A stretch of DNA of 64,000 nt from Favolaschia claudopus (Eukaryota; Basidiomycota; Agaricomycetes; Agaricales; Mycenaceae), in contig JAWWNJ010000279.1 of assembly GCA_037176885.1 (NCBI GenBank), positions 40,973-104,972 of the forward strand. Direction: 5' to 3'. Shown piece by piece: positions 18,947 through 60,033 of the stretch; the first letter of the stretch is position 1, and the number at the start of each line of letters is the position of its first letter. The notes under the pieces are model-generated. The model was not told where the DNA came from and made no database searches. It worked only from the letters and a program-made list of their open reading frames with translations. The position numbers were made by a program, and so were the translations under genes.

Positions 18947-19264
18947 TAACAGAATCTGAAAATGCGCGGAAGGCGCAATAACCTCAGTCTCCCGCAATGT
19001 GGGATGAAAGACTGTATATTAAATACCTGAAAATGCGCGGAAGGCGCAATAACTACACAATGAGTAAGTAAATACAAGTAGGTAGATAGAAAGAGAACTC
19101 ACCAGTACTCACCCTCAGTCTCCCGCAATGTGGGATGAAAGACTGAGGGTGGTGGACAGACGAGCGCGGTTTATATGTAAGAACAAGGCTGTATGATAAG
19201 TATCAGATATCTATCAAGGGCCGGAGCGGCGGGGCGGCTACCCGGAATAATTCATATTCTGACA
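18947..19264 (-). repeat. copia 3' LTR (copy 1), 318 bp
   Basis: In element orientation it runs TGTCAGAAT...ATTCTGTTA. It contains two copies of GCGCCTTCCGCGCATTTTCA and two of CTTTCATCCCACATTGCGGG. A purine-rich GAGTGGGGG tract abuts it on the internal side (19265-19273), the expected polypurine primer. Confidence 0.9.
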
Positions 19265-21782: not shown

Positions 21783-22115
21783 TGTAAGGGCAACCTTTAG
21801 GACCCGAGATGTCTCGAGGGTCTAGCGAGGGAGAATCCAAAGTTAATTAAGAAGCTACTAAGAATACATCACAGCGCACCTAGCGAGGGAGAATCCAAAG
21901 AGAAGAAAGGCTGAGGATTCCCACGCTAGGTGCAGTAAACATATAGTAACTAGTTCCCACAAGCTCGGAGCAATCGGCAATGATCCCGGGCCAAGTCACA
22001 TGCCTTACTCCACGATGACATAGGGCTTTGGGGATTTGACGGGAAAGTGGGAAATCTGCAGGAGGCCTGCGTCATAGGTGGCTGTGTAGTGCCAAAAGAG
22101 GGAGTTCCCCTGACA
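21783..22115 (-). repeat. chromovirus 3' LTR, 333 bp
   Basis: In element orientation it begins TGTCAGGGGAACTCCC and ends GGGTTGCCCTTACA-like (TG...CA). Reading by eye shows no difference from the 5' LTR. Confidence 0.9.
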
Positions 22116-25100
22116 TCATCCCCCCCTTGGAATGCGGCGCCTCGACGCATAGATCGCACCTGAGCTGGAGTTGACAAGCGGTCACGGAAGGGAAGGGAAT
22201 CGAAGGCAGCAACAGCAATGGAGCGAGGTTTGGAAGGGTATTTGCGGTAGAAGGCAGCGACAGCGTCCGGGGCAAAGACATTAGAGTGCTTCACCCATTG
22301 ATCATGGGACGGGTCATAACCCTTCCAGCGAACAAAGTACCATAGACTCCCATAGCGGATCTTGGCATCCAATATCTCCTCGACCTCCCATTGCTTGTCG
22401 CCAGGCACGTCAAGGACTGGTGGCGGCTCTTCGTGTCTGGGGCGAGTGGGGAATGGATCGGCTTCCACAAGCTGAAGTTTCACGACGGGGAAGACAGGGT
22501 GGAGGGCAGAGTACCGGGGCGGCAGCTCCAGTTTGAAGGCACCGTTACCGACGACCTTCAGAACCTTGAAGGGGCCGATACGCCGGTGGGAGAATTTCAC
22601 CGAAGGGCGGGTGGTGCGGATATCTGAAGCATCAACCCACACCCGGTCACCAACCTTGATGTCTGGAGCTGGCGTCCGCCGGCGGTCATAGTACTGCTTG
22701 TACTCTGCTTTGGCCTTGACAAGTGCTGCCTTTGCCTCGGAAACCCCTGACGCAATCCGATCGTGGAACTCGTTCACAGCCTCCAACCTAGAGCGTGCAG
22801 CGTGGGGCTCAAAGCCCATCCGTGGAAGCCGACCAGTGTCCGTCATGAACGGTACCTGCTGCGTGGAGGAATGCATGTGGTTGTTGTACGCAAACTCCGC
22901 TGCAGGTAGCAGCTCATCCCAGTCGTCCTGCTTGTAATTGGTGAAGAGCCGGACGTACTGCTCGAGTTCCTGGTTAACACGCTCCGTTTGGCCATCGGTC
23001 TGCGGGTGGTAGGCCGTAGAAGTGGCTGGGGTGACCCCAACGAGGCGCCAAAGCTCGCGCGTGAACTCTGCGATGAACTGGGTGCCACGATCCGAGATGT
23101 ACTTCTCTGGCAGGCCATGGTGGCGCCAGACGTTCCGGTAGTACAGCCGAGCAGCACCAACCGCGTCGATGGTGGTGTGACACTCCATGAAGTGCGCTCT
23201 CTTCCCAAGGGCACAGACAACGACCATGACTGCATCGTATCCATGGGCCTCGGGAAGCTCGACGATAAAGTCGACCGACACGGTGTGCCAGCGCTCTTCT
23301 GGGATCTCTGTGGGGTGGAGCTCACCAATCGGCAGTTGACGAAGCGCCTTGGTGCGGCAGCACAAGTCACAAGTCGCGACATACCGACCGACATGGCGCG
23401 ACAGCTGGGGCCACCAGTAGTTCCGAGACACGAGCTCCAGGGTCTTGAAACGACCGGCATGGCCTGCAACACGCGTGTCATGGTGCTGCTCCAGGATGCG
23501 TCGGCGGAGGTCCCTGTCTCGGGGGACGACAATCTTCCCCCGGAAGTAAAGGAGTCCACCTTCAATACGCCATTCCGAAGACCGGGCAGACCGCACACCT
23601 CGGGCCTTGAGGAGTTCCTTCGCAGTCAGGGCGATGGGCTCTTCAAGGTCGGGGTCTCCAGCAAGCGCATCACGAATGTCGCCCAGGAGGGGAGCCTCAG
23701 GGCCAGCAACAACCAGGGCCTCGGTGGCCCGAACGTGGAACAGCTCGGGTCGAAGCAGGGTAACGTCCTGGTTATCGTCCTGCACTCCATGGTCTGGTCT
23801 TCGAGAAAGCGCGTCGGGGCGACCCATGAGGCGACCCGGTTGGTGGTGCAGCGAGAAGTCGAAACGGGAGAGGTAGAGAGACCACCGAGCTTGGCGACGG
23901 TTGAGCTTCTGGGCCTTCCGGAAATATTCCAGGTTTTTGTGGTCCGTCCAGATCTCAACCGGGTGCTGCGCGCCCTCCAGGAAGTGGCGCCACTCCTCAA
24001 GGGCTCGCACAATCGCAAGCATCTCCTTGTCGTGAATCTCGTAATTCCGCTGCACCTCGTTCAGGCTTCTGGAGTAGAACGCAACCGGATGCCACTTGCC
24101 ATCGTCACCCTGCTGGGAGAGGACGGCACCGGTGGCATAGTCAGAGCTGTCAGCCTCGAGCCGGTAAGGGCGCTCGGGGTTCGGAAGAACCAGAACGGGG
24201 TCCCGAGTCACCCGTCGCTTGAGCTCGTCAAAGGCAGCTTGCTCTTCGGGCCCCCAGGTCCAGGCAATGCCCTTCTTGGTGAGTCTGAAGAGGGCTTGAG
24301 CAACGTCTGAGAAGCCCGCAATGAACCGGCGGTAGAAGTTTGTGAAGCCAAGGAACTGCTGCACATCCTTCTTATTCTCAGGCGCTGGCCAAGCTGCCAC
24401 TCCTGCAACCTTTACAGGGTCCATCTCAACGTGGTTGTGGGAGATAATCACGCCGAGGTACTCAATGGAGGTCCGCTCAAACTCACACTTCTCGGCTCGA
24501 AGGTAAAGCTTGTTTGCGCGAAGCCTCCGCAGGACCTCTCGGACGATCTCTCGATGCCGACGGATGTCTGAGTGGGCAATGAGGATATCGTCGAGGTAGA
24601 CCATGACGTCGCCAGAGAGGATAAGATCCTGGAAGATGTCGTTCATCATGGTCTGGAAGGTTGCAGGGGAGTTGGTCAGACCGAAGTACATGACCAGCGG
24701 CTCAAACAGTCCCCGGTTAGTCCGGAACGCTGCCTTCCACTCGTCGCCTTCACGGATTCGAACGTTGTTAAAGCCCCATCGGACATCGAGCTTCGTGAAG
24801 TACCGGGCTCCCCTGAGTCGGTTGATGAGGTCGTTGATTAAGGGGAGCGGGTAACGATTCTTCACAGTCATAGCGTTTAAAGCTCGATAGTCCTGTACGA
24901 ACCGAAGTCCGCCGTCCTTCTTCTTGACGAAGAAGACGGGTGAGGCCATAGGTGATTTTGACGGTCGAATCCGGCCAGTGCCAAGTCCCTCCTCGATGAA
25001 GGCATCAAGTTCCTTCTGTTCGAGAGGCGAGATTGGGTAGACCTTGCAGTTCGTGGGTTTAGAGTCCGGCACGAGCTCAATGGCATGGTCCCAGGATCGG

Positions 25101-26095
25101 CGTTCAGGCAGCGAGTCAAAGGACTCCTTGTTGAAAACATCGTCAAACTCTCGGGCCCATTCGGGAACGTCCGAGCGCGCCGGGGCTGAGTTTTTGGCGT
25201 ATGCCTCAGCCAGGCGCTGGGAGACGGTGCTTCCAGCACGGATATCCTCAGAAGGCAGGAACTGGGTGTAGAACACCCGGTCTCCCGGCTCAAGGGGGTC
25301 ATCCACTTCATCCGCATCATCCACTTCATCCACATCATCCTCGTCGTCATCCTCGTAGTCTGGGAACAGCTCCGGCAGGTCATCGTATTCATCTTCGCCT
25401 AAGTCTATGGCACAGATGGATGGAAGGGGACCAAGTCGGAGCTGCCGGAGGATCTCAGCGGCCAGGCGAGACTCTCTGCGGGCAGCACGAGCCTCCAGGC
25501 GAGCCTCAGTGCGGCACGTGGAGCACTCGCTGGGGCATCTGCTCATCTTGACCTCTCGGGTGTCCCAGTCGATCTCCGGGTTATGTTTCCGGAGCCAGGA
25601 GTAGCCGAGGATGAGCTTCTGCTTCCCGAGACGGGTAACAGCGAGCTGCATACGCTCAGAGTGACCACGATACTGCAGCACAACGTCGGCCACCTCACGA
25701 ATCGCACCAGCCTCATTTGGGGAGTCATCCACGTTGAAAACCGGAATGGGCTGTGCAAGGCGGCGGAGGGGGAGGCCAGACTTAGCTGCGAACTCAGAGT
25801 CAATGAAGTCTGAGGTGGCACCGCAGTCGACGAGACCTTCGAGAGAAAGCTTAGTGGCGTCCTGAACTGCCTGGATCTCAAGGGGGAGATGCAGGGAGTT
25901 GGCACCAGGTGCAGCAGCAACAGTATAGCGCTGAGGAAGTCTACGCTCCCAAGGCTTTCGCCGGATGCGTGGGGACCGGAAGGGGGCAGGGGGTACGTCT
26001 TTCGTTTCGGCAGGTTCAACAGATGTAACATTGGCAGACTCATCATACAAACATGCGAAACGATTAGGAGACGCGATCGAGGGCGTACCGCTCAC
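21950..26095 (-). CDS. chromovirus pol: protease, RT, RNase H, integrase, chromodomain
   Basis: The frame begins with a GTG overlapping the gag stop, so it is probably made as a Gag-Pol fusion by -1 frameshifting. It has the protease [11 protein letters not shown] near residue 90, reverse transcriptase YLDD near 498, and RNase H with [10 protein letters not shown]. The integrase has a zinc region at about 870-913 (ends CDLCC), then [16 protein letters not shown] and [11 protein letters not shown] carrying the D, D and E residues. A chromodomain follows at about 1232-1285 ([18 protein letters not shown]). Chromodomains of this group bind modified histone tails and steer integration. The last 100 or so residues run into the LTR, and the frame stops at 21950. 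The length is usual for the clade. Confidence 0.92.
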
Positions 26096-27228
26096 TCGTC
26101 GCGTAGGAGAAAACCCTGCTCTTCCTCGACGGCCACAGACTCTGGCTCAGCCAGCGAGTCGGTGGTGGCAACCCGAGCCACCAGTTCGGAGAGGAGCTCG
26201 GACCCAAGCTGACGGATGACCTTGTCAAGGACGTCAGCAGCTCGGACATCAGCAGGGGTGGGGCAATCCCGCGCCAGGTGCGGGCCGCCACATCGGTAGC
26301 AGCCACGGGGAGGCCCTCTTCCGGAACGTGTGCGATCAACGTCCATGGGGACTACCTGCGGAGGGGGAGCAGGGGCTGGCATGGCACGAGGGGGAGGCGC
26401 ATGGGCAGGGACAACGGGGAAGACCCCTGCTGGACGCGAGCGAGAGGCTGGCGGAGCCGAGGGGGCCTTTGGGAGAAGCCCAGCAGCACGAGCCCGCACG
26501 TGCGATTCGTACTGGCGGTATGCTCGGGTCCGCCAAGCCATGTAGTCGCGGAGGTCTGGCGGGTCGCTGGACGATGTGATGGCCGCATTGATGGCAGGGT
26601 CAAGGCCAGAGCGGAACTTGGTGACCTTGACCAATGGGTCAGCAAACCCAGCAAGGTCGAAGAGGTCTTCGAAGTCATCAGTGTACTTGAAGACATCCCG
26701 GGAGCCCATATAGTATGCCCTAGACTCGAGTTTGTGTAGGGCGTGGTCCTGCTCGTTCTCCTCAACAAAACGGGAGCAGAACTCCTTGGTAAAGGCGTCC
26801 CAGGTGAGGAAGGGGAAAGGGGTTTTGGAGGACATGCGCTCAGCCCATTTTTGCGCAGAGTCTTTGGACATGAAGGACATGGTGAAACGCACTGCCTTTT
26901 CCTCAGACATCTCGCCGCCTTCAACAAACGCCTCCGGAACCAGTCGGATGTAAGTCCGAGCTGAGTGAAGGAAGGCCCGGCCAGCCGAGCGGTCGCCGTC
27001 AAAGACGAAAGGGGGGTTCGGTCGAAGGACCGTTTTTGCTGCCGGTGTGAGGTTGGCAAAGAGTCCTGGACTCTCGGCCGGAGGCTCTGGGGGAGCGGCA
27101 GGGGTCGGAGCAGTAGTAGTGGGAGGATTGGCAGCGGTTTGAAAAAGCTCGACCAGACGGTCAACAGTCCTCTCGAGCCTATCCATCCGCTCGGCGGCGG
27201 CTGCAGCAGCGGCGGCAGAGTCGGTCAT
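26092..27228 (-). CDS. chromovirus Gag, CCHC zinc knuckle
   Basis: 378 residues. There is an Ala-rich N-terminus with a short leucine heptad ([16 protein letters not shown]). The capsid-like region contains W...F...F motifs typical of retrotransposon gag (about residues 85-230). A Pro/Ala-rich linker follows, then a zinc knuckle [13 protein letters not shown] (about 312-324) that binds RNA. The stop TGA overlaps the first pol codon. Frame and start (ATG at 27228) are unambiguous, because the LTR ends 144 bp upstream. Confidence 0.92.
26110..26116 (-). promoter_or_regulatory. predicted -1 ribosomal frameshift site GGGTTTT
   Basis: On the minus strand the heptamer G GGT TTT lies in the gag frame exactly as X XXY YYZ, 15 bases before the gag stop. 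A -1 slip here enters the pol frame without a stop (reads through S-P-T-R-R-V-S into pol). The same heptamer is kept in the degenerate copy at 44096-44102. No downstream pseudoknot was evaluated. Confidence 0.65.
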
Positions 27229-27371
27229 GGTGGGTTCTAGAGAGGGGGAGGAGGGGGCAAGATTCGCGGTTTGCGCGTCCGAGACAGCAGAGGAGGAGTC
27301 CGACGAAGCGTCTGAAAAATCGCCAAAGCGCGCAATCTTGACCAGTTAATCCCTTGGAGCCTTTCTTCTGC

Positions 27372-27704
27372 TGTAAGGGCAACCTTTAGGACCCGAGATG
27401 TCTCGAGGGTCTAGCGAGGGAGAATCCAAAGTTAATTAAGAAGCTACTAAGAATACATCACAGCGCACCTAGCGAGGGAGAATCCAAAGAGAAGAAAGGC
27501 TGAGGATTCCCACGCTAGGTGCAGTAAACATATAGTAACTAGTTCCCACAAGCTCGGAGCAATCGGCAATGATCCCGGGCCAAGTCACATGCCTTACTCC
27601 ACGATGACATAGGGCTTTGGGGATTTGACGGGAAAGTGGGAAATCTGCAGGAGGCCTGCGTCATAGGTGGCTGTGTAGTGCCAAAAGAGGGAGTTCCCCT
27701 GACA
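27372..27704 (-). repeat. chromovirus 5' LTR, 333 bp
   Basis: Matches 21783-22115 as far as can be read. Its outer edge adjoins the target duplication GTAAG at 27705. Confidence 0.9.
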
Positions 27705-29642
27705 GTAAGGTGCTGTTGTTTCATGGATGATGCCTAGACGTTTGAATTCTGTTTCCATTTGATGAGACGTGAATTCACCACCCCCATCTGTGCGAAAGAA
27801 TCGAGTCCAGCCCTCACAGAATTCCCAATTAGCAATTTGAGCACGAAAATGAGCCTCAGTAGATTTTCGCCATTCTTTGAGTTTTGAATAGACTTGGGAT
27901 TTCTTTTGGGCAAATAGAATCCACACCTCAGAGGAATGATGATCTATAAGGACCACCCAGTAGCGTATTCCACCTGGGCCTTCAGGTGTTACGGGACCAC
28001 CAACATCAGATGATACAATATCTAAAGGACCACGAGCTTTGGTTTGACTTTTGGAAAATGGTAATTTCTTCATTTTCCCAAGAACACAGGGTTCACAGAA
28101 TTTGGGGATTCCTGTCAAGGATGTAATTTCACCAAGTCGGCCTTTAGCAACAGATTTCTGTAATAGTTGGAAATTTGTATGACCAGATATTCGATGAAGA
28201 TGATTGATATCCATAGCAAATAGTGCATGTGGATCTTCACTCAAAGGAGTATAGACAATGTGGTACAGTCCCTTCCGATGCTGGGCTTCAATCATTCTTT
28301 GCCCTTTTGGGTTTCGAACAATGCAGACATCTGCTTCGAACATGCAATTGTATCCCTTTTTAGCCATTTGTTGCACTGAGACAAGTGTGATACCAAAGGA
28401 TGGGACATGTAATGCACGTAGAGAGACATCAGACATCCCTCGCTTTGTTTTGCAAGATAGACGGATGGTTCCAGTTCCAACTGCATCACAATATGTGTCA
28501 TTACCAAGCCGCACCCTTTTTGGTGGAGTGAGTACTTTATAAGAACCTGTCTCAAACCATGCCTCATTTGGTGTCATGGTGGTAGAAGCTCCAGAGTCAA
28601 TTACCACAGCTTTGGATGAAGGGTTTGCATCACTCAAAAGATAAGCAGACATAGCAGCATAAGATTTCTGGGAAACAACAGGTACAGCTAAATGTCCATG
28701 TTCAGAGTCATCGGAATCAGATTCAGAATCTGTAGTAGCAGAGGCATTTGCCTTGTCACGGCGCTTTCTAGGTCTCGCTTTCTCAGACTTCTGCTTGTCA
28801 TTCTTCTTGGAGTCCTTTGATCCCTGCGCTAGATTCTTCAACTGATAGCAGTTATCGGAAGTATGGGATTTGTTTTGTCCATGTATAAGGCAATGTTTAT
28901 CGCCCTTGGCAGATGGCTTTCCTTTGCCAGGGTTTGTGGATTCAGCAGCTAGAGCAGTGTCGTCGCTGTTCTCACTCTTTGGCAGTTTACCAAGAGTGAT
29001 CAGGCGAGCACGAGCTTTATCCCAAGTTATGCCTGTACCAAGAGAGGACACAATGTTCCCTTTAATCCCTGTCCAGTAGCTATCATCTGGTAGAGTGCTG
29101 AGCAGAATGAGAGGCTGAAGCTCTGGGGGAAATGGAAATTCCAGGCGTGCAAGCCTATCAAAACAGGTCTTGATAGCAGCTACATGAGAAAGAATCTTGT
29201 TGCGATCCATGAGCTCTGGTTCGCCTTCAATAACGAGGTTGGTGCTAAAAAGTTCTGCTAGAACACCCATTGCGGAATCGGCACGATTTTCTGCTTCAAA
29301 GCGCTGGCGCAGTTTGGCCCAGAGAATTCCAGCATTAGATTCGTTGACATACTCTGTGCGCAGTTCTGCTGAAAGAAGCTTCTGAATGACACCTAAAGCA
29401 CGGCTATTACGTTCGCCAGGGGTATCCTTGAAAGCTACGCCAGCAACAGGAGCTGTGGCAGGCAGAGGAGTAACAGCAGCAGCAGCAACAGTGGCATCAG
29501 CTGCATTTGCAGCGAGGATAACAGATTCAAGCAGAGTGTAGACTCCCTGTAGGCGCAGTTCCACTGTAGCATTAACATGAAAAATTGGCCAGTCTTCTGC
29601 TCCGGAAAGCTCAGAAGAAGCCGAGTTTGCCGCAGTTGACAT
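27705..29642 (-). CDS. copia gag-pol, N-terminal part: gag, protease, integrase core (copy 1)
   Basis: The start ATG is at 29642 (MSTAANSASS). The gag region spans about residues 1-260. A zinc knuckle of the form Cys-Xaa2-His...His-Thr...Cys (CLIHGQNKSHTSDNC) sits near 290. A basic/Ser-rich linker follows, then the protease VIDSGASTTMTP, then the GAG_pre-integrase H-H-C-C block (HRISGHTN, CEPCVLGK). The integrase has D in DIVSSDVG and D in FFRTDGGGEF. The frame continues into the chromovirus LTR and stops at 27594. An in-frame extension upstream to 29858 exists in this copy only, because of a 10-bp difference in the leader, and is not the likely start. Confidence 0.9.
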
Positions 29643-29796
29643 TGTGTGAGAAGTCCGAGGAGAGTCCGAGGGAATTTCGGCAACAGGTTGTGTGATTGAT
29701 TGATTGATACAAGTCTGTGCTTGTGATGCTTCGAGCTCTGATGAGCGAGCAGGTGAGTCTTCCAATAGGTATGTCTTCAGAGAGCTAGCGCTCGGT

Positions 29797-29807
29797 GGCC
29801 CATAACC
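29797..29807 (-). promoter_or_regulatory. copia primer-binding site, half-tRNA-iMet type
   Basis: GGTTATGGGCC (minus strand) directly follows the 5' LTR. It is complementary to the anticodon-loop region of initiator tRNA-Met, as in copia elements that prime with a cleaved 5' half of that tRNA. The same site is at 60034-60044 in copy 2. Confidence 0.7.
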
Positions 29808-29954
29808 TAACAGAATCTGAAAATGCGCGGAAGGCGCAATAACCTCAGTCTCCCGCAATGTGGGATGAAAGACTGTATATTAAATACCTGAAAATGCGCG
29901 GAAGGCGCAATAACTACACAATGAGTAAGTAAATACAAGTAGGTAGATAGAAAG
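29808..29954 (-). repeat. copia 5' LTR (copy 1), internal-side part
   Basis: The LTR is split by the DNA transposon. This part plus 36738-36898 equals the 308-bp 5' LTR seen whole at 60045-60352. Confidence 0.9.
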
Positions 29955-29965
29955 AGGACCCCTGA

Positions 29966-30246
29966 CTATACCCTAGGAGCCTAGCCCACTTTCCGGACAA
30001 AAATCGCAAATTTTGGCCTAAAACCTAGGTCCCAACCGGACAAAATATCACTCTGGCTGCGGGGGTAGCTAGGTCCTTGGTCCGGACAAAAATGCTGGGG
30101 GTGGAGCGCAAAATTTACACTTTTGTATGGATATCTTGGTCTAGCGGTATGGCCTTCGGATAGTAGTGTTGTGCCGGTTCGAGTCTGGCTTTTGCCTCTT
30201 ATTTTGCGTCTTTTAAAAATCACGCAATTTAGCTAAAGCTGTAACC
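29966..30246. promoter_or_regulatory. left subterminal region with repeated CCGGACAAAAAT motifs
   Basis: Three CCGGACAAAA motifs and several CTAGGTCC/CCTAGCCC boxes occur here; both types recur near the right end. They are candidate transposase-binding sites. The promoter of the fusion gene must also lie in this 280-bp stretch. Confidence 0.55.
30129..30196 (+). promoter_or_regulatory. tRNA-like sequence with A and B boxes in the transposon leader
   Basis: The D arm (GGTC/GGCC) pairs fully around an A box (TTGGTCTAGCGGTA). The T arm (GCCGG/CTGGC, with one G-U) pairs fully around the loop in GGTTCGAGTCT. Acceptor and anticodon stems do not pair, so it is not a working tRNA. It may be a tRNA relic or a polymerase III promoter. 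Confidence 0.5.
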
Positions 30247-33200
30247 ATGCAAATACAATCATCAATTTTTGCCGAGTATTTGAAAATCGTCTCCCAATCG
30301 TCTCCTCTCTTCGCTCGCGAGACTTTCATGGATCTAGACGTCGACGACCTCGAGGCGGCATTCATCCCCGCCGATTGGATCGGAAAGAAGAAGAAATACT
30401 CCGAAGACCTACCTGCTTCTGTCATCGCTGCGAAAAATGCCGTATTCAGCTGTCCCACCTCAGCCACGGAGATTGCAATAGCAGACAAAAACCTACCTGT
30501 GCTGAAGTTTGTCGACATCAAACTCCCGCGAGTCTCTTCGGAGCTTGTCTATGGGCAAAGTGCTCTGTGGTTTAGCAAGGACGAGCCGGCTAGCGACATC
30601 ACCTTCTTACGAGAGCGAAATATTCCTCCTCCTCGGGTGCTGTACCAATTGCGTCGCAAATCTGGACAGGCGTGGTTAGACGGAGCCAAATCGATATCCG
30701 ACCCACGTTATAACGATGGTCAAGATCGTTTTCCGCTTTACGTCTTGACACTTTGGACGGAGATGTCACAAATGGTGGAGGAGCAGGGGGCCTGGAAGAG
30801 AAGTGTTGAGTGGCTGAGAATGCAGCGGGAGAAATGCAAGGATGAGCTTACTCGGGATATCATCGACGAGGCGGGAAAAGCTTTGAAGACGATGGCACGG
30901 GATGCTCCGCTCACATACGGCCGTCAGTCGGTGTCGACGATAGATCTCCGAGAGTTTCTCGGCACGGTCTGGCTGAAAACGAATAACATCGATATCATGA
31001 TGGAGGATTTGGCGGATCGAGTCGCTTCTGATCCTGGAGTGGCGGGCAAAGTAATTGTGGCGCCGCTTGCTTTCGCAAATGCAGTACTTGCGGCCCGTAA
31101 GGGAGAGTATACGAGGGAGAAGGCGAGATTGCTGCACCGCTACGAGTGTGAGGTTAAAGAGCATAAGAAGGAAAGGATCGTCTTCCCGGCAAATGTCGCA
31201 AATTGCCATTGGATTGCGGGTGTTATCGATTTCCGGCACAAGACTATCAGCTTTGGTGAGTAATTGGTGCCTTTCGAGATATATTGAATACTTACAATTG
31301 TCAGGCGACTCCATGTCGGAATGGGTTGCCCCAGAAGAGAGGTTGGTGGGGGGTTTGATGCGGTGGCTTCAGATGCAATTTGGAGGAGGATTCAGCTGCG
31401 AATACGACGGGTTAGAGCATGGAAATCAACAGGACAACTTCAGTTGCGGAGTCGTGATGGAAAATACCTGCCAGCGAGCGATCTTCCCCAATACACCGCT
31501 CTGGATTCCCCGTCTAGCCGTCCGTGCGCGGCTCGAGCATTTTTTGAAGTATGCGTCCACCCAGGTGGAGCGTGTGGAGTCCAAAACGGCTGAGGTTCGT
31601 ACATCAGCGGCACTATCTGCATAAAACAATACTCACGCACCTTTAGACTGTATTCCGTCCTGCCCAGAAAGAAAATGAAGTACTCTGCGAGCATCCAGCG
31701 TTTGGCGCTCGGGTAGGACGTGGAGATCACAATTTTGAGGACAACACACAGTCGTTGGCACACGGCCGTCGAGTGCGAATCACAGACCTTTTAAATCCTC
31801 AAGACGACGCCATCTCGATTCAATCCAGCGAATCATCGTCGTCCCGCGGGTCCGTCGTCCTCCTTGGAAAAGCAGCGTGGTCGGACGATGAAGCGAGTAG
31901 CACAGGCGGTGACGGTGGCGGCGGCGGCAGTGATGGTGGAGGCGGCGGCGGCAGCGATGGCGGAGGCGGAGGTGGAGGTGGAGGTGGAGGTGATGTGGAT
32001 GTGGATTGGGATGCAGGCGGAGACGGATACACCACCGGCGGCTTTGAATCCAGCGAGCGCGCGTCTGCATCATCATTGTTGGCAGACGAGTTTGCGAGCT
32101 CGGGCGATGATTTTGGACCGGCGAACACGTCGTCAGAGGGCTTTTCTGTGGCTGGAGATGTCGAGTCGATGGGTGCAGAAGGAGAGGACACAGATTCAGT
32201 GATGGACTTGGACCCACCGCCGATTTCTGATCGACCTCCGAGTCCGGTTCCTCCTCAGACTTCACTGTTGGGACTCTTCAAGGGATCGAAACAGACGAAG
32301 CCGGAGAAGTTTGCGCCTCCGCCTCCGCCGAAGAAACGAGGTCGCCCGAAGGTGGATGACAGCGAGAGTGAGAGTAGCCGCGTTCCCACGAAGAAGAAGT
32401 TGAAGAAAGAGCGCCCGCCGACTCCTCCGCCTTCTCCGCCCAATGTCGGCATCAGTAAATCGTCGAAAGCCGCCAGAGAGTTGATGAGAAAACTGAAAGC
32501 AGGAGTTCTTCATCTGGAGCCGAGCCATCCCAAACGTTGGCAAGACTTCAAAGATGCTTGTCTTGAGCTCGATCCGGAAGCCGAATTCATGGGCGATACC
32601 GATATTCAAGAGATGCGACGCATTCGGCACTCTGCGTGTGGCACAAAAGTCACAGGAAGAATTCCGTACGAAGTTTTACGGTTCAGATCACATTGCAACA
32701 AAGAGTGCCCAATAATTCACAAGGATGCGGGGATGTCGACGCTCAAGAAGATCATAAAATCGGCTACTGCTGGCCTCAAGCTCTCGAAACTGGGACGATC
32801 GCGAACGACAAGTCCTGAACCTGATAAGCCTTGTTCAGGGGTCACGGACGACGATATCCCCAACGTTCAACGATACTTGCGGCGAACCAGCGCTCCGGGT
32901 GGAGGGTCTCGATCTGTGTTCAAGATTGCGATGGAAAATTTCAAGAAACCGTTCATCAAACTGTCCTCTGGGCGCCAGGAAGAGGTTCGCGACCGCCAAT
33001 ACCACGAGCAGAAGTGGCGTAACGATCATGCTCGACTCCGCGTTTTTTCTACCAGCTGCGACAAAACAGTTCCCGCGCGAAAACCTCGAACTCTCCCCTG
33101 TCCTCCCTGTACATCCTTACTCAACAATAGGGCGTTCAAACGCGCACTCAAAAAACAGGGACCGTCGCATCCAGACAACTATATCTTCACAAACCACTTG

Positions 33201-36200
33201 TTTCGAAATCCCATCCTCGGTGAACTGTACGGACGTTGTGCTGGCTTGAGAGAAATCATTGAACATCCGGTGCGTATTCTCGTATCACAGTGGGTGTTAC
33301 TAAACTTATTATATCTGATAGGACGCGAAAAATACGCCCTGTATTCGCTACGCTCAAGGTGTTCTTGCTGGTAAATACAAAAACGAAGTTTTCAACGGCC
33401 TCGTTGAGGCGATGGTTACTAAAACGGATCGTGAAGAGCGCGGTGTCGGCATGCAGAACTTCAAATACGCTCCTGCGTACGATGAGTTCTGCAATATCAT
33501 CCGGATCAATAGCCCTGCCGCCTATCGCGCCTTCCAGGAGCACCTTCCCTCACGCAGCGAGCGAAGCTTTCGGTAGATTTGCTTTGTTTGTCTCGTTTTT
33601 CAACCAGTTTGTACTCAACATTTAATTGTTAGGGCCAAAGAGGCACGCGAACCCCGGTTTCCCATGGATATTTCCGATCGCAACTTCCAACTCGTCGCCG
33701 AACACTTGGCTGCATTGAATTATGACGGCCCAGTGGGTTTGAGCTGCGACGATACTAAGCTATTCGCCTCCTTTCGGTTGTATTGGGACAAAGAGAAGAA
33801 CTCACATGTTCTCGTTGGGGGAACGGATGGGCCTCTTCGGGTTGCTGATCCAGAGCATGTAAAAGAAGTGATTGCGGCAGCGAAGGCAAAGAAAGCGACA
33901 AAAGTGAGTGCTGTCAGCTCTCGGGATTCATTTCTTCCGTTAACAAGTTCTTCAGGTTCGTGTTTGGTGTCTCACAATTCCCATCCCCGGTATAACACCT
34001 ATCATCGTTGCGGCTCTTCCGATCGGGAACGATTTGACGGCAGAAACTCTCCTCGAATATTTGAACAAGGTCGTTCACGGACTCATCGATCATAACATCA
34101 ACATCATATCGTATGCTTGTGATGGCACCGGGACTGAGCGCCGCATTCAGGAGATGTTCGTGAACCAGGCGTCAGAAAAAATCGAGCATCTCATACCAGA
34201 TCCTCGAGGGAAAGGCCCACCGCTGCGTATCATCATAGCCGTTGTTCGCGGTCACTTAATTTGCATGATACAGGACTCAAAACATGGTCTCAAAACTTTG
34301 CGCAACAATCTCTTCTCGGGTGCGAAGTTGTTGACTATAGGGAGCTACACGGCAATTTACTCGCACATCTGCGAGATCGCTTTCGCGGAGGGTTCACCGC
34401 CTTACCATCGGGATGTCGTCAAAATGGATCGGCAGGATGACAACGCCGCAACACGTTTGTTTTCTGCAGATACCCTCAAATACCTCGCCGACCACCATCC
34501 CGAATATCTTGGCGAAATCGTCTACCTCTTCGTTTTCGGCGAGCTGATTGATGCGTACCAGAACAGGACGATAGATCATGCAGAGCGAGTCAAACTTGTT
34601 CTGCGTGCTCGCTATTTCCTCGATTCCTGGTGCTCTTTCCTCAAACTCGCAGATTACCCCAAATCGGTCTATTTCCTCTCGCACGAGGCCGAAGACATCA
34701 CCCGCATCATCATCGAAGGATATCTGGCTCTCCTATACACACATCGCGACCACCTCGGTCAAGTCTTCCCTCTCCTTCCTTGGCTACACTCCAGCGAGGC
34801 TTGTGAGCATGTTTTTGGCGAAGCACGCCGCATCGTCAAGGACTTCACTATGCTGGACTTCTTCTATCTTATCCCGAAACTTCGGGTCAAGCTTCGGGCG
34901 GCCGTTCTTCGCGGGAAAGCTTCCAATCCCAAAAGTCGCGCCACCGGTTACGCTCATACTTATTTCGACACCACTGGGATCGACATCCTTGCCCTCTCCT
35001 CGTTTCCGGATGACGACACTATCGCTGAAATCGCCTCAGAAGCCTCGGAGGAAGCAGACAGCTTACTGGCTCTCCTTGGCTTGGTTCCTTCGCAATTACA
35101 CCCCGAAAAGGCTGTAGAATCGTCTACCTTGCCGAGTATTTCCAGCTGGTACGATAACACGGGCGACGACTCGGATGCATCGGACTATGCCGAAAGCATC
35201 TCATCGGCGCAGGAACTGCAGGATATTATTGATCGCGCAGCTGACGACAATGATCAACGTACAAGGGCCGAGAACGACGAGCTCTTGAACTTAACCTCTG
35301 CGGCTCTCGCCTTGTCAGCGGACGACATGATTCAGATGTGCGTGTTGATATTAGTATTTGCTTCATGGCGTTGTGGCTGATATAACTCGCCAAGTCATCG
35401 GCTTCCAGACACTGACACCACAGCCGAGGTATTTGACGAGATTATCGCAGAGGAACAAGCTGCCCTCGATCTCCCCGCCCTAAATATCGAACCTTCAAAG
35501 CCTTTGGGTCGAGGTACGGCTGTTCCCGACAATCTTGATTTCGACTATCTCGTGGATTTACGGCGCCGGCACCAAACGATGCAAGCTGCAGTTGGTGTGC
35601 GAACACGGGTTGGAGACAGCCCGGATTCAGAGAAAGCTAAGGATCGCTCGTTGCGGCAGCAGCTCATCCGCAAATTCCATCTCGCTCTGAAAGAGGAACA
35701 GGACACGGCTACAGGTACTGGTTTGGAACGCGCCGCTCGCTGGCGTGCTCCAGCTCGTGGGGGAGGCGATTCGAAGACTCCTGAAAAGAATCAGGTTGCC
35801 GGAAATTCAGCCAATGCTGCGTTAGCTGCAAACGCCGTCGCGAAAGCCGTATGATTCCTTTATTTCCGCCATATGATCATGTATTTATGGCTATAAAAAC
35901 ATAGGCTGCCGTCAAGCGAAAGGCTGTCTACACGAAAGCCAGTGTGCCAAACCTTCCTGAAGTCATTGCTGCGCGGGTTACGCCCATACGGCCAATTACC
36001 ATCCATGACTTTGGATTTATTTTCACGCGTCGCGGGCTGATGGTGGGACACGGTGAATATTTATTGGTTTCTTCCCACTTTTCAATGCTCATATCAATCT
36101 ACTAGTGTTTGAGATGTATTCAAAAGGCGGCGGCAAATATGGAAAACACGAACCAGTCACCGAGTCATCCAATATCTCAGCACTCTCGAAGATTTCGGTC

Positions 36201-36494
36201 CAGGTGTATGAGCACGGGCACGGCGCCCAATTCAGGGCAATTACCACCGCCACTGCGGTTGTTCAATCCAAGCAATTCGCTCATGTCGAGCCCTTCCAGT
36301 TCGTGTGCTTACTCTCTTCACATCCAAAGATTGTTCCTGCCGGGATCGAGCTTGGGCTAGACGATATCAATCGGTTCAAGGCACTTTTACGGGGCTCAGA
36401 CAAGTTCGAGAATGCGATGAAATTGTTTCGCAAGAGAGGAAAGAAGGCGGGAGTAGGGATGGGCGAAGATTCGGGCGAGGAGGTCGACGAATAG
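30247..36494 (+). CDS. Ulp1-type cysteine protease fused to an RNase-H-like transposase, nine exons
   Basis: Exons: 30247-31255, 31305-31594, 31647-33269, 33322-33572, 33633-33903, 33956-35337, 35395-35848, 35905-36052, 36106-36494. They sum to 5,817 bases, 1,938 codons with no stop, and every intron is 49-60 bp with GT-AG ends. Residues 240-420 form a C48 protease: His 321 (CHWIAGVID), Asp 338, Gln 378/379 and Cys 384 (DNFSCGVV). The middle has a poly-Gly tract, Pro-rich blocks, an AT-hook (KRGRPK, about 663) and Cys/His pairs (about 761-787, 904-921). The transposase part has GVGMQNFKYAP, LSCDDTKLF (about 1097), YACDGTGTE (about 1202), DSKHGLKTLRNN (about 1255) and CEHVFGEAR (about 1430). 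These acidic residues suit a DDE/D fold like P/THAP9 or hAT enzymes. Two separate genes remain possible if a start exists within exon 3. Confidence 0.85.
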
Positions 36495-36718
36495 TTTATA
36501 TATTGAATATATATTTGTGGAAATTTTTACCGCGCCTAAAACCAGTTTCTGGGGTTGCGAAATAGTGTCAAAACGCGCCCAAAGGGCGCGGAGGCGAAAA
36601 AAACGAGTTTTACCAGGCTAGGTCCCGTCCGGACAAAAATCCCAACTTTCGCCCAAAATTTGTCCGGACAAAAATTGGCCAATCGGGCTCCGGCGGGACC
36701 TAGCCTCCAAAGGCATTA
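36495..36718. promoter_or_regulatory. right subterminal region of the transposon
   Basis: It contains two CCGGACAAAAAT motifs, GCTAGGTCCC and its inverse GGGACCTAGC, and a GCGCCCAAAGGGCGCG palindrome near 36575. The polyadenylation signal of the fusion gene is expected here. Confidence 0.5.
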
Positions 36719-36737
36719 TCAGGGGTCCTATAGAAAG

Positions 36738-39619: not shown

Positions 39620-41837
39620 CTACATCATACTATGGCGACCGATAGCGATGAGAGATTGAGTCAAAAACCAGTAATCAAAAGCTTCTTGGAAGTCGCGAGA
39701 TTCTCCCTCTGGAACGTAACGAACCTCGGCGAGGCGGAGGGCATATTCAACTGGGAAGCGGATGCTGCGGTGGCAGGTCTGGATATGAAAAGTACCTTCC
39801 CTAGCCAAGACATCGCGCTCGGCAACGGTACCGCCAGGAATTCCATAACCCTCTCCATGGGTGTTGATAGGGCCCAACTGTTGGGCGATTGAGCTCGGCG
39901 TATGAATCAGAGAACAAAGGAAAGACGCACCGAGATACGACCGCCCGCTGGATCAACAAAGGGCGAGCCTGTAGCAGCCCACGCAAGCATCTGAGAGCGA
40001 AAGGCCGGGGAGTCGATGCGGTCTAGGTCAACGATGGAGTGGAATGCTCCCTTTGCGGCAGCGAACATCGCAGGACAAGGAGTGCCGATGCCACGCAGGT
40101 ATCGCTCGATGAGCATGTGGAAGGTGAGAGTGATGTCGCCTGTGATACCGCGCAAAGAGTCGAGGAGTTCCGCTGAGTTGGGAGCGTTCACAATGTCGAG
40201 AACGGCCAGCAGAGAGTCTGCAGAGCTGATGCGAGAGGTTTCCATCACGCTGAAAAACGTGTCTGACCCGCCTTCGAAGTTGCGGATTGCCTGTGGTGAA
40301 GAGTTCAGTAAGCAGGTTGAGACGTGAATGAAGACAACTCACCCAAGGCAGGTTGACCCCGTTTCTGCATGCCAGAAGATACCCCGTGCGGAAAGAGGTG
40401 GGCTCCGGTTTGTCGAACGTGTCATTCGCAACGGTAGGCAGATAAAGCATGTGTACACCGAGGGATTCCGTCATGCGTAGCACGGTCGCGGTAGCGGAAC
40501 GCTGCAGCCTGAACTAGGATTGAGATTACAAAATAACAAACAGTGCAGACACTCACCTCTGCGCCATGATAAGTGATGAGATGGGTTTGAAAAGCACTAA
40601 GATCATCCGTCTCGGAAGTCGCAAGGAAGTCTAGCACTTGGCGCGTGAGGGCGGGGAACCATTCATAGGTAAAGTTGCGCGAGAGGGCGCGGAGATCGCA
40701 GTGGTTGACAATATACTGAAAAAGAGCGACGCTGATTGAGGGGATCAATTGACCAAGGATGTGGGCAAGGCCGCAGAGAGCGTCCAAACGTTTGAATTTG
40801 ACGAGCCGTGCGGGCGAAGCAGGGATGGATGAGGGGAGTATGCGAAGGGTGAGCGCATTGTCCTCTCCGTGGTTGAAATAGGTAGATTCGTCGGCAAGCT
40901 CCCGTTGGAGCGCTGCGTGAACAACCTCGCGTTCCACCCCTTCCCCCACTGCCTCATCCGTGGTCCTGCACTTGAAGTTAGACAAGAAGGATTCCAAGTT
41001 CAGGAAAGAACTTACATTACAAAACTGCGCTCCGGATTTAAGAGCTGTGTATAATCACCTGTTCTACCAAGCTGATCTATTACTGCTACAAATGCGTCCA
41101 CCATCTCGTCGATATTGGCTCCGCGGATTGACAGGGGAGGACAGATCCTGCGCCTTGGACAGCCCACTGCCTGAGGTCATGCGTGAATCGGTTGGGGCTG
41201 AAATCACCACGAGAGTGAGGCTGGTATGTGTTCTCGTCGCCCCAGATCCTAGGAGGAAGAGAGAAGTCGGGCTCGGGGGACAACGAGCGCGTGCGGGCTC
41301 GGGGGACGGGGAGGTCACCAAGCACACGGAGAGAGCGAGGTGGGCGAGTTAAGGCAGGTGGGGCGGAGACGGTTGCGGGCGCAGGTGCGGCACTGGCGGT
41401 ACTGGCGGGATCGCGAAGCACGCGGCGCGGAAGCTCGGAAGTGGAGGTGGCGGCATCTGCAGTGGTGCGCACACGCGGACGGCTTGGTGTGGTGGCTGGA
41501 GCGCTGCCTGCTGGAGTGTTTTGAGGAGCAGGTGCAGCGTGTGCGTTCGAACGCGTCAACCGAGGGGTCTGGGCGGCGGTGTTGCGAGGGGTGCGCTGCG
41601 AAGATATCAGTTGAAACGAGAAAAGCAAGGAGTTTTGCTTCCACATACCCAGAACAAACGCGCTACGGTGCGCTCTTCTTCCTCGCTGTCGACTTCCTCC
41701 CCTCCCGACGTATTCACGTCGTCATCAGAGCGCATACTGTTGCCATCGCACGGAAACAGCGAGTAAATGTGCTGACCGAGGCAGTCATGGCCATGGCGGC
41801 GGCCGTCCGAAGAAATGTAGCTCAGCTCAGTTCCCAT
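39620..41837 (-). CDS. conserved hypothetical protein, seven exons (copy 1)
   Basis: Exons on the minus strand: 41837-41649, 41595-41208, 41166-41016, 40965-40557, 40501-40343, 40290-39931, 39877-39620. They join to 637 codons with all phases consistent; introns are 41-55 bp. The first 200 residues are acidic, then Pro/Ala/Thr/Arg-rich and probably disordered ([22 protein letters not shown]). The rest is globular and helical ([50 protein letters not shown]). I do not recognise the family. Further exon-like sequence upstream (41892-42212) is cut off by a chromovirus fragment, so the true start may be lost. The second copy is at 63076-64000. Confidence 0.6.
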
Positions 41838-41891
41838 GACAGCTGTTAATATCGTGAGTAGGCAACCGAAAGTAAGAAGAAAGGCACGAAC

Positions 41892-42212
41892 CGAGTCTTA
41901 ATCCAAGATCCATCCCGGAAGCTCCCGGGATCGGCGAAGTGGTTGCTCGTGAAGGGTCGTCTCGAGGGGTTGAGGTATGATGCGAATGCGGGGTCCAGTA
42001 AAATGGGCAGAGGTCCGCCCGCGATCTGCAAGTCCCAGCGGCTGGACGGTGGTGACCGCGACTGCCGCGGCAGCAGATGACCGAATGGTCTCTTCGAAGC
42101 CGAAATGAGCCCTCGAAACGACCATGTCGCCATGAGCCATGCGCAGGAGATCGTTGACGCGCGTATTGAGGGGGAGGATGTATCGGTAGAGCAGATGGTT
42201 TTCTTCCAGAGC
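41892..42212 (-). pseudogene. possible upstream exon of the hypothetical gene, truncated
   Basis: One minus-strand frame reads [19 protein letters not shown] and [16 protein letters not shown] with codon use like the downstream exons. A GT donor at 41891 and an acceptor at 41843 define a 49-bp intron before the ATG exon. The frame does not join cleanly. The sequence ends abruptly at the chromovirus junction. Confidence 0.35.
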
Positions 42213-44077
42213 CAAAGGCAGCTTGCTCTTCAGGCCCCCAGGTCCAGGTAATGCCCTTCTTGGTGAGTCTGAAGAGGGGTTGAGTAACGTCTGAGAAGCC
42301 CGCAATGAACCGGCGGTAGAAGTTTGTGAAGCCAAGGAACTGCTGCACATCCTTCTTATTCTCAGGCGCTGGCCAAGCTGCCACTCCTGCAACCTTTACA
42401 GGGTCCATCTCGACGTGGTTGTGGGAGATAATCACGCCGAGGTACTCAATGGAGGTCCGCTCAAACTCACACTTCTCGGCTCGAAGGTATAGTTTGTTTG
42501 CGCGAAGCCTCCGCAGGACCTCTCGAACGATCTCTCGGTGCCGACGGATGTCTGAGTGGGCAATAAGAATATCGTCGAGGTAGACCATGACGTCGCCAGA
42601 GAGGATAAGATCCTGGAAGATGTCGTTCATCATGGTCTGGAAGGTTGCAGGGGAGTTGGTCAGACCGAAGTACATGACCAGCGGCTCAAACAGTCCCCGG
42701 TTGGTCCGGAACGCTGCCTTCCACTCGTCGCCTTCACGGATTCGAACGTTGTTAAAGCCCCATCGGACATCGAGCTTCGTGAAGTACCGAGCTCACCTGA
42801 GTCGATTGATGAGGTCGTTGATCAAGGGGAGCGGGTAGCGATTCTTCACGGTCATAGCGTTTAGAGCTCGATAGTCCTGTACCAACCGAAGTCCGCCGTC
42901 CTTCTTCTTGACGAAGAAGACGGGTGAGGCCATAGGTGATTTTGACGGTCGAATCCGGCCAGTGCCAAGTCCCTCCTCGATGAAGGCATCAAGTTCCTTC
43001 TGTTCGAGAGGCGAGATTGGGTAGACCTTGCAGTTCGTGGGCTTAAAGTCCGGCACGAGCTCAATGGCATGGTCCCAGGACCGGCGTTCAGGCAGTGAGT
43101 CAAAGGACTCCTTGTTGAAAACATCGTCAAACTCTCCGGCCCATTCGGGAACGTCCGAGCGCGCCGGGGCTGAGTTTTTGGCGTAAGCCTCAGCCAGGCG
43201 CTGGGAGACGGTGCTTCCAGCACGGATATCCTCAGAAGGCAGGAACTGGGTGTAGAACACCCGGTCTCCCGGCTCAAGGGGGTCATCCACATCATCCGCA
43301 TCATCCACTTCATCCACATCACCCTCGTCATCATCCTCGTAGTCCGGGAACAGCTTGGGCAGGTCATCGTATTCATCTTCGCCTAAGTCTATGGCACAGA
43401 TGGACGGAAGGGGACCAAGTCGGAGCTGCCGGAGGATCTCAGCGGCCAGGCCGGACTCTCGGCGGGCAGCACGAGCCTCCAGGCGAACCTCGGTGCGGCA
43501 CGTAGAGCACTCGCTGGGGCATCTGCTCATCTTGACCTCTCGGGTGTCCCAGTCGATCTCCGGGTTATGCTTCCGGAGCCAGGAGTAGCCGAGGATGAGC
43601 TTCTGCTTCCCAAGACGGGTAACAGCGAGCTGCATGCGCTCAGAGTGACCACGATACTGCAGCACAACGTCGGCCACCTCGCGAATCGCACCAGCCTCAT
43701 GGGGAGCCATCCACATTGAAAACCGGAATGGGCTGTGCAAGACGGCGGAGGGGGAGGCCAGACTTAGCTGCGAACTCAGAGTCAATGAAGTCTGAGGTGG
43801 CACCACAGTCGACGAGACCTTCAAGGGAAAGCTTAGTGGCGTCCTGGACTGCCTGAATCTCAAGGGGGAGATGCAGGGAGTTGGCACCGGGTGCAGCAGC
43901 AACGGTATAGCGCTGAGGAAGTCTACGCTCCCAAGGCTTTCGCCGGACGCGTGGGGAACGGAAGGGGGCAGGGGGTACGTCTTTCGTTTCGGCAGGTTCA
44001 ACAGATGTGACATTGGCAGACTCATCATACAAACATGCGAAACGATTAGGAGACGCGATCGAGGGCGTACCGCTCAC
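42213..44077 (-). pseudogene. chromovirus pol fragment (protease, partial RT)
   Basis: Minus-strand frames cover the protease ([11 protein letters not shown], about 43840), the acidic linker and reverse transcriptase with YLDD (near 42585). A one-base deletion near 43700 and disruption near 42795 (a changed splice-like CACCTGA) break the frame. RNase H, integrase and chromodomain are missing. Confidence 0.85.
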
Positions 44078-45197
44078 TCGTCGCGTGGGAGAAAACCCTG
44101 CTCTTCCTTGGCGGCCACTGACTCTGGCTCAGCGAGTCGGTGCTGGCAATCCGAGCCACCAGTTCGGAGAGGAGCTCGGACCCAAGCTGGCGAATGACCT
44201 CGTCAAGGACATCAGCGGCTCGGACGTCAGCGGGGGTGGGGCAATTCCGTGCCAGGTGTGGACCGCCGCATCGGTAGCAGCCACGGGGAGGTCCTCTCCC
44301 GGACCGCGTGCGATCAACGTCCATGGGGACTACCTGCGAAGGAGCAGGAGCTGCCCGAGGAGGAGGCGCATGGGCAGGGACAACAGGGAAGACACCTGCT
44401 GGACGTGAGCGAGCAGCTGGCGGAGCTGATGGGGCTTTCGGGAGAAGCCCAGCAGCACGAGCCCGCACGTGTGATTCGTACTGGCGGTACGCTCGGGTCC
44501 GCAAAGCCATGTAGTCGCGGAGGTCTGGGCGGTCGCTGGACGAGGTGATGGCTGCATTGATGGCGGGGTCAAGGCCAGAGCGGAACTTGGTGACCTTGAC
44601 CAACGCGTCAGCAAACCCAGCAAGGTCAAAGAGGTCTTCAAAGTCATCAGTATACTTGAAGAAATCCTGGAAGCCCATGTAGTACGCCCTAGACTCGAGT
44701 TTGTGTAGGGCGTGGTCCTGCTCGTTCTCCTCGACAAAGCGCGAGCAGAACTCCTTGGTGAAGGTGTCCCAGGTGAGGAAGGGGAAAGGAGTTTTAATGG
44801 ACATGCGCTCGGCCCATTTTTGCGCAGAGTCTTTGGACATAAAGGACATGGTGAAACGCACTGCCTTTTCCTCAGACATCTCGCCGCCTTCAACAAACGC
44901 CTCCGAAACCAGTCGGATGTAAGTCCGAGCTGAGTGAAGGAAGGCCCGGCCAGCCGAGCGGTCGCCGTCAAAGACGAAAGGGGGGTTCGGTCGAAGGACC
45001 GTTTTTGCTGCCGGTGTGAGGTTGGCAAAGAGTCCTGGACTCTCGGCCGGAGGCTCTGGAGGAGCGGCAGGGGTCGGAGCGGTAGTAGTGGGAGGATTGG
45101 CAGCGGTTTGAAAAAGCTCGACCAGACGGTCAACAGTCCTCTCGAGCCTATCCATCCGCTCGGCGGCGGCTGCAGCAGCGGCGGCAGAGTCGGTCAT
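44046..45197 (-). pseudogene. chromovirus gag, C-terminally frameshifted
   Basis: 383 codons, collinear with the intact gag (26092-27228) including the zinc knuckle [14 protein letters not shown] 4-bp deletion near 44133 (in CTCAGCGAGTCGG) puts the last 25 or so codons into another frame, so it runs on into pol sequence. Several small indels shorten the Pro-rich linker. Confidence 0.85.
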
Positions 45198-45340
45198 GGT
45201 GGGTTCTAGAGAGGGGGAGGAGGGGGCAAGATTCGCGGTTTGCGCGTCCGAGACAGCAGAGGAGGAGTCCGACGAAGCGTCTGAAAAATCGCCAAAGCGC
45301 GCAATCTTGACCAGTTAATCCCTTGGAGCCTTTCTTCTGC

Positions 45341-54762: not shown

Positions 54763-55080
54763 TAACAGAATCTGAAAATGCGCGGAAGGCGCAATAACCT
54801 CAGTCTCCCGCAATGTGGGATGAAAGACTGTATATTAAATACCTGAAAATGCGCGGAAGGCGCAATAACTACACAATGAGTAAGTAAATACAAGTAGGTA
54901 GATAGAAAGAGAACTCACCAGTACTCACCCTCAGTCTCCCGCAATGTGGGATAAAAGACTGAGGGTGGTGGACAGACGAGCGCGGTTTATATGTAAGAAC
55001 AAGGCTGTATGATAAGTATCAGATATCTATCAAGGGCCGGAGCGGCGGGGCGGCTACCCGGAATAATTCATATTCTGACA
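54763..55080 (-). repeat. copia 3' LTR (copy 2)
   Basis: Matches 18947-19264 except for rare substitutions (GGGATAAAAGAC for GGGATGAAAGAC near 54950). It includes the 10-bp CAGTACTCAC addition. Confidence 0.9.
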
Positions 55081-59869: not shown

Positions 59870-60033
59870 TGTGTGAGAAGTCCGAGGTGAGATAACCAGA
59901 GTCCGAGGGAATTTCGGCAACAGGTTGTGTGATTGATTGATTGATACAAGTCTGTGCTTGTGATGCTTCGAGCTCTGATGAGCGAGCAGGTGAGTCTTCC
60001 AATAGGTATGTCTTCAGAGAGCTAGCGCTCGGT

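Follow-up and report, generated by a model that had tools for sequence, protein, structure and literature searches.

Transposons of the P superfamily, which include the Drosophila P element, THAP9 and the rust-fungus elements P-1_MLP and P-2_MLP, have inverted ends, an 8-bp target site duplication (TSD) and a transposase with a P-type RNase H-like fold and a D-D-(DxxH)-E set of acidic residues. The same features are found in the subject of this study, a transposon of Favolaschia claudopus, a mushroom of the family Mycenaceae in the Agaricales, that lies within a 64,000-nt stretch of contig JAWWNJ010000279.1 (positions 40,973 to 104,972, forward strand; here called the window, in whose numbering all coordinates are given). 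In contrast to the animal P element and THAP9, however, no THAP domain was found in its predicted protein (no match at E ≤ 1 in residues 1–500 and 701–1938, nor in residues 1–1058 of the deposited protein P0069), and an Ulp1-type C48 protease and a long linker are added N-terminally to the transposase.

Proteases of this type have been described on other mobile elements (here and below, statements with a citation refer to the available parts of the cited papers). In Ginger1, an Ulp1 or OTU protease domain is fused to the transposase in one protein, as is the case here, but the transposase resembles Gypsy integrases, the protease is C-terminal, the TSD is CCGG or CCGT and the listed families are from animals (PMC2836005). 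An Ulp1 protease is also mobilized together with a DNA transposon in Mutator elements of plants, hydra and lancelet (cited in PMC2836005), and C48 peptidases occur on the CryptonF and CryptonS elements of oomycetes, which differ by having a tyrosine recombinase, with the CryptonS peptidase described as an additional protein (PMC3212892). The original prediction for this locus, which was made from the letters of the DNA, already pointed to Ulp1 genes on several transposon groups, whereas the fused arrangement, of which it was less sure, is known from Ginger1 and some Mutator elements (PMC2836005). As a general idea, the Ulp1–transposase fusion is not new. The Mutator transposase belongs to a superfamily other than P. 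An Ulp1 domain N-terminal to a P-type transposase is not described among the open-licence papers listed by the searches, with Repbase and other literature outside their scope; of the protease terms looked for, none occurs in the available parts of three papers on fungal transposons (PMC12730594, PMC3411680 and PMC10799480), and no open-licence paper was found that links transposon, Ulp1 and Zisupton.

The transposon and its predicted protein

Judged by its sequence, the region from 29955 to 36729 is a complete, autonomous-looking cut-and-paste DNA transposon of the P superfamily with a single gene (table 1), and we are highly confident both of this identity and of the fusion of protease and transposase. 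The insertion is exact, since the uninterrupted target with a single 8-mer is present elsewhere in the genome: such empty sites were seen at 40 of 40 scored places (from 425 candidates), three of them at 100% and 37 at 99% identity. A perfect 8-bp TSD flanks not only the window copy but also three other end-to-end copies (C155, C161 and C112), all four of which hold both halves, and the terminal inverted repeats (TIRs) match at 30 of 30 positions in C161 and C112.

The nine exons, separated by GT-AG introns of 49–60 nt, could be re-joined into one frame of 1,938 codons plus stop with no internal stop codon, just as originally proposed. With alternative splice sites at introns 4, 6 and 8, the frame remains uninterrupted in six of the 48 combinations tried; these six vary at introns 6 and 8 and give proteins of 1,921 to 1,940 residues, and C-terminal details of the protein are therefore provisional. 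On this contig, the deposited protein (P0069, 1,058 aa) is identical over exons 1–4, i.e. it joins the protease, the linker and the N-terminal part of the transposase. A single protein of 1,920 aa from Mycena galopus (P0001) covers 98% of the query.

The protease half is clearly of the Ulp1/SENP type. PF02902 (Peptidase_C48) scores above its curated cutoff in the window protein (E 5.2e-5; 23.6 bits against 20.7) and also matches P0069 and, at 2.1e-9, P0001. The catalytic His, Asp, Gln and Cys that the original prediction had recognized were all located (His321, Asp338, Gln378 and Cys384), constitute the same set as in yeast Ulp1 and human SENP1/SENP2, and are kept in 47, 43, 45 and 45, respectively, of 47 aligned fusions, which represent mostly the longer of 64 large homologues. 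In a relative, P0175, the protease is modelled with a mean predicted local distance difference test score (pLDDT) of 90, and among known folds it is most similar to yeast Ulp1 and human SENP1/SENP2 (PDB 1euv, 2iy0, 1th0; template modelling score for 1euv 0.72 by target length). NEDP1 as well as bacterial and viral relatives match too, and since both SENP and NEDP1 are matched, the modelled fold would be compatible with a preference for SUMO, NEDD8 or ubiquitin. Unlike the Ulp1/SENP enzymes, the transposon protease has some 200 further N-terminal residues that are modelled with confidence and lie beyond the Pfam C48 match; in the Foldseek alignment with Ulp1/SENP structures, about 236 columns of the P0175 model (449 residues) are covered.

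For the transposase half, structure prediction on another relative, P0065, similarly yielded a P-type RNase H-like fold with an insertion domain and a match to the Drosophila P transposase; in the P superfamily, the insertion domain employs GTP as a cofactor. The C-terminal β-rich domain (36106–36494) is also modelled confidently in P0065 and lies outside the span covered by the structure matches. The acidic motifs noticed originally correspond to Asp1097/1098, Asp1204, Asp1255 (DxxH) and Glu1432, with the columns of Asp1098, Asp1204, Asp1255-xx-His and Glu1432 kept in 43 to 47 of the 47 fusions. The signature of the P superfamily is D, D, [C/D](2)H, E (PMC8230255), and from order and fold we infer a residue-by-residue equivalence to Drosophila P. 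What had been called a DNA transposase is thus indeed one, and TSD, TIRs, fold and D-D-DxxH-E residues now allow it to be assigned to the P superfamily. The P-element helix-turn-helix (PF12017, Tnp_P_element) is over the cutoff in three of six proteins scanned (P0106, P0141 and P0161) and is matched in seven of 32 relatives at E ≤ 0.1; neither the window protein pieces nor P0069 gave a match at E ≤ 1. A profile of the 32 transposase relatives found no P transposase among PDB sequences, with four weak matches only.

In the pieces of the window protein scanned, there was no match to a tyrosine recombinase or, at E ≤ 1, to an integrase domain. Because a DDE-type fold is present instead of a tyrosine recombinase, the element does not belong to the Cryptons, and with its TSD of 8 bp and no integrase match it does not belong to Ginger1. 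A KDZ/Zisupton affiliation, which the fungal host and the length of the TSD had first suggested, now appears less likely, with no Pfam KDZ match at E ≤ 1 in these pieces and a fold that favours P; Zisupton elements also have an 8-bp TSD. Following the catalytic core, residues ~1488–1530 (~34970–35100) show a weak profile likeness to the CRADD death domain (E 0.1), which is probably due to chance.

Table 1. Features of the transposon and its gene in window coordinates.
Feature	Position	Strand	Basis
P-superfamily DNA transposon, complete, 6,775 bp	29955..36729	+	TIRs, TSD, empty sites elsewhere in the F. claudopus genome
TSD, left copy, 8 bp, ATAGAAAG	29947..29954	.	same letters at 36730–36737
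Left TIR, 30 bp, outer 11 bp exact	29955..29984	+	80% complementary to 36700–36729
Left subterminal repeats, TCCGGACAAAAAT motif	29988..30093	+	repeat families D1, D2, D7, D12; copies near right end too
Exon 1: N-terminal extension of protease, first part of C48 domain, His321	30247..31255	+	open frame; in deposited P0069
Exon 2: remainder of C48 domain, Asp338, Gln378, Cys384	31305..31594	+	frame, alignment
Intron 2: 52 nt, phase 0, protease/linker joint; in-frame TAA at 31622–31624 if retained	31595..31646	+	used in P0069 and P0020; 51-nt phase-0 counterpart in C155 copy
Exon 3: linker (DHNF and LLNP motifs, Gly-rich run, basic stretch), Cys/His-rich N-terminal module of transposase	31647..33269	+	motifs common to homologues above shuffles; no in-frame Met before residue 608
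Exon 4: region corresponding to P-type helix-turn-helix	33322..33572	+	PF12017 matches in relatives, none in window protein pieces
Exon 5: start of RNase H-like core, Asp1097/1098	33633..33903	+	Asp1098 column invariant in 47/47 fusions
Exon 6: RNase H-like core with insertion domain, Asp1204, Asp1255 (DxxH), Glu1432	33956..35337	+	alignment; fold match on relative P0065
Exon 7: C-terminal helical region	35395..35848	+	open frame, conservation
Exon 8	35905..36052	+	open frame, conservation
Exon 9: C-terminal β-rich domain, stop codon	36106..36494	+	open frame, conservation; confident part of P0065 model
Right subterminal repeats	36618..36675	+	repeat search
Right TIR	36700..36729	-	pairs with left TIR
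TSD, right copy, 8 bp, ATAGAAAG	36730..36737	.	perfect duplicate of left copy

Recurrence, selection and the joint between the halves

An important question is whether the fusion is a peculiarity of this locus. A whole-protein search, restricted to proteins between 0.55 and 1.75 times as long as the query and thereby favouring fusions, listed 64 large homologues, 62 of which match both the protease and the transposase profile, with the protease first in every one of the 62; 15 of these are outside the alignment used for building the profiles. Going by species names, we take them to represent the Agaricales, Atheliales, Thelephorales, Boletales, Polyporales and Russulales. The fusion therefore recurs in Agaricomycetes, a point on which the original prediction had made itself dependent, and its opposite, i.e. 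homologues always encoded as two separate proteins, was not observed. Searches with the separate halves added 128 proteins among the matches listed (best 120 of 249, plus 18), with 99 showing the transposase only, 18 the protease only and 11 both; the single-half proteins are probably for the most part incomplete models, many of them being from metagenome contigs or partial models.

Within the F. claudopus genome, 83 transposase matches listed fall into 54 clusters, which were typed among the matches listed and do not represent exact counts. A protease match upstream on the same strand and within 8 kb was present in 29 clusters (at distances of 4 to 6,305 nt), including one internal deletion (C16) and inverted duplicates. 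The single 821-aa frame of C16, which contains both halves, was rejected as an intronless fusion, since the internal deletion joins protease residues 135–362 to transposase residues 1368–1566; also discarded as evidence for an intronless fusion was an apparently continuous frame in C155 (residues 28–974), which has stops at introns 1 and 2.

Ratios of non-synonymous to synonymous substitution (dN/dS) against other genome copies were 0.14 (290 codons) and 0.15 (222 codons) for the protease, 0.19 for part of the linker (76 codons), 0.09 for the N-terminal part of the transposase, 0.03 for its core, and 0.11 and 0.16 for its C-terminal part. For linker, N-terminal part and core, the comparison was with a single copy (C141), whose aligned stretch contains three stops; these codons were left out. 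Ratios to more diverged copies were not used, as synonymous sites were saturated there. By these ratios, both halves are under purifying selection. In addition, trees of the two halves from the 47 fusions have distances that correlate at 0.87, a value not reached in any of 2,000 permutations, and have 22 well-supported splits in common (of 27 and 30, respectively). As far as the sequences tell, the history of the two halves is largely shared across Agaricomycetes, and the simplest reading is an old fusion that was mostly inherited as a unit.

At the joint itself, 21 of the 48 linkers contain an LLNP motif (shuffling gives an expectation of 0.44, with three as the largest count in 500 shuffles) and ten of the 48 a DHNF-like motif (0.006 expected), although kinship was not controlled in either case. 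The first in-frame Met of exon 3, residue 608, is downstream of both motifs. Two deposited proteins of this genome, P0069 and P0020 (the latter from the C155 copy), are fused across the intron 2 joint. In the window and four other copies, the second frame opens between -61 and +325 nt from the protease stop and has its first Met 16 to 194 codons in; in three of these five copies an in-phase candidate intron of 51–56 nt (52 nt in the window, 51 nt in C155 and 56 nt in C161, always in phase 0) joins the two frames.

Short derivatives and insertion surroundings

The left end of the transposon matches at 40 scored places in the genome, including the window. The family has miniature derivatives, because short non-autonomous elements of 445 bp (L007 and L008, on contigs C64 and C147) share its ends and have perfect 8-bp TSDs. 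Four nearly identical short deletion derivatives (L009–L012) are found on contig C7 at ~322, 351, 381 and 410 kb, i.e. about 29.3 kb apart, three of them, under the search rule used for the ends, with 464–465 bp and the same TSD, GCCGTCGC; their spacing points to a tandemly duplicated block of ~29 kb. In the 5' leader of the window copy, positions 30125–30185 contain a sequence resembling tRNA A and B boxes (GGTTCGAGTC), the B-box-like part of which also occurs in the C7 derivatives; as a tRNA this box pair was rejected, with no match by ARAGORN or Rfam.

The target of the insertion is a repeat bordering a copia-like element. An uninterrupted copy of this repeat at ~60117–60293, which is 100% identical to the joined flanks, represents an empty site within the window itself. 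By reading frames only, two copies of the copia-like element were assigned on the minus strand (19252–29879 and 55068–60013), the first of which appears to be split in two parts by a gypsy-like element (21950–27345; a related gypsy copy is at 41827–45314), with the P-type transposon lying a short way upstream of the gag-like frame of this first copy.

Possible role of the protease in transposition

The explanation that we favour overall, if with some reserve, is a P transposon with an Ulp1-type protease that is N-terminal to the transposase and acts in cis. The transposase half would bind the inverted ends via its Cys/His-rich and helix-turn-helix modules, and its D-D-E site would cut and join DNA, leaving 8-bp duplications. 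The protease half would thereby be brought to the transposon ends, where it may act on SUMO or a related ubiquitin-like modifier, taking it off the transposase, bound repressors of chromatin or proteins of DNA repair, and such removal could favour excision, insertion or repair. For this cis-acting removal of SUMO as such, our expectation is more tentative and falls somewhat short of even. That the SUMO state can affect transposition is illustrated by HMGXB4, whose support of Sleeping Beauty is weakened by SUMOylation (PMC10138897).

Several observations weigh against this overall picture. The deposited P0069 ends just inside intron 4, i.e. without the catalytic core, and thus conflicts downstream with the 1,938-residue model, and the structure matches were obtained with the relatives P0065 and P0175 rather than with the window protein. 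Of the 47 fusions, two have another residue in place of the catalytic Cys; at the position of the Asp, two have a replacement and two others a gap. In the genome, 25 of the 54 clusters have no listed protease match within 8 kb in either orientation, and in five of these 25 the protease profile found none in ~4.5 kb upstream. Copies without the protease do exist, but none was shown to be intact: three such clusters viewed more fully gave no TIR/TSD pair by a rule that takes ends beginning with AGGA, and no intact protease-less element was found among them. The C27 and C16 copies, two of five additional loci, also gave no TIR/TSD pair within the stretch examined. For C27 no joining intron candidate was obtained (this copy may have an extra exon), and C112 has no short one, with two candidates, one of them 128 nt long. 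Nine pairs of supported splits conflict between the trees of the two halves. Finally, the linker shows no excess of SUMO-interaction-like motifs, which occur in 4 of 48 linkers (mean 0.104, compared with 0.113 in shuffles).

Alternatively, the protease could act in trans on host SUMO pools, e.g. by lifting the silencing of the whole family, with the fusion merely ensuring co-expression. Such a role would fit the 18 protease-only proteins among the matches listed, as well as the C48 peptidases of the Cryptons, described for CryptonS as an additional protein (PMC3212892). We nevertheless regard it as rather unlikely, since the conserved fusion and order in 62 of 64 large homologues and the largely agreeing trees suggest a need for cis linkage.

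A more elaborate scheme, in which mushroom elements would be a distinct P lineage carrying a SUMO-removing enzyme in cis and intron retention would in addition set the form of the protein, is improbable as a whole. Keeping intron 2 would produce a free protease, keeping intron 4 a protease with the DNA-binding part, and full splicing the active transposase; the deposited P0069 of 1,058 aa has just the form expected from retention of intron 4. In Drosophila P elements, intron retention makes a repressor.

Self-processing, in which the protease would free itself from the transposase by a cut after Gly-Gly, had been considered in the original prediction but now appears very unlikely. A Gly-Gly-Gly from residue 851 is conserved, with Gly-Gly pairs in 37 and 39 of the 47 fusions, but this only Gly-Gly kept in at least half of the 47 rows (P0001 residues 380–1000) is situated within the N-terminal module of the transposase. 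By contrast, no Gly-Gly of the linker is kept in half of the rows, neither the C155 copy nor P0001 shows the Gly-rich run that the linker of the window copy has, and no ubiquitin-like domain was recognized in P0069, which spans the whole linker. Just as hard to accept is a protease that is a decaying passenger with no function in transposition: lost catalytic residues in some fusions and copies with no detected protease would be expected for a passenger, but its dN/dS values of 0.14 and 0.15 and the conservation of the His in 47 and the Cys in 45 of 47 fusions would not. Least probable of all, a free Ulp1-type protease (exons 1–2, ending at the TAA at 31622–31624) and a transposase starting within exon 3 could be two genes whose fusion is a prediction artefact, as an unspliced intron 2 does stop the protease frame at 31622 and many database models are single-half, but a separate start between 31650 and 32300, as considered in the original prediction and possible in principle at Met 608, would exclude the upstream DHNF and LLNP motifs common to homologues, and the candidate introns in three of five copies, the deposited fusions P0069 and P0020 and the 62 fused models (from a search whose length limits favour fusions) also argue against it.

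Overall, unrelated groups of transposons such as Ginger1, Mutator and Crypton have acquired Ulp1-type proteases, and so, here, have P elements, in which the fusion is widespread and, by its dN/dS values, under selection. Mushroom proteins named 'hypothetical' or 'ubiquitin-like protease family' can now be recognized as transposon genes. With both activities predicted in a single protein, it becomes a testable question whether the removal of SUMO by a transposon aids transposition, and on which target it would act, and because the P transposase is well studied, there is an established mechanism with which the effects of the added module can be compared.
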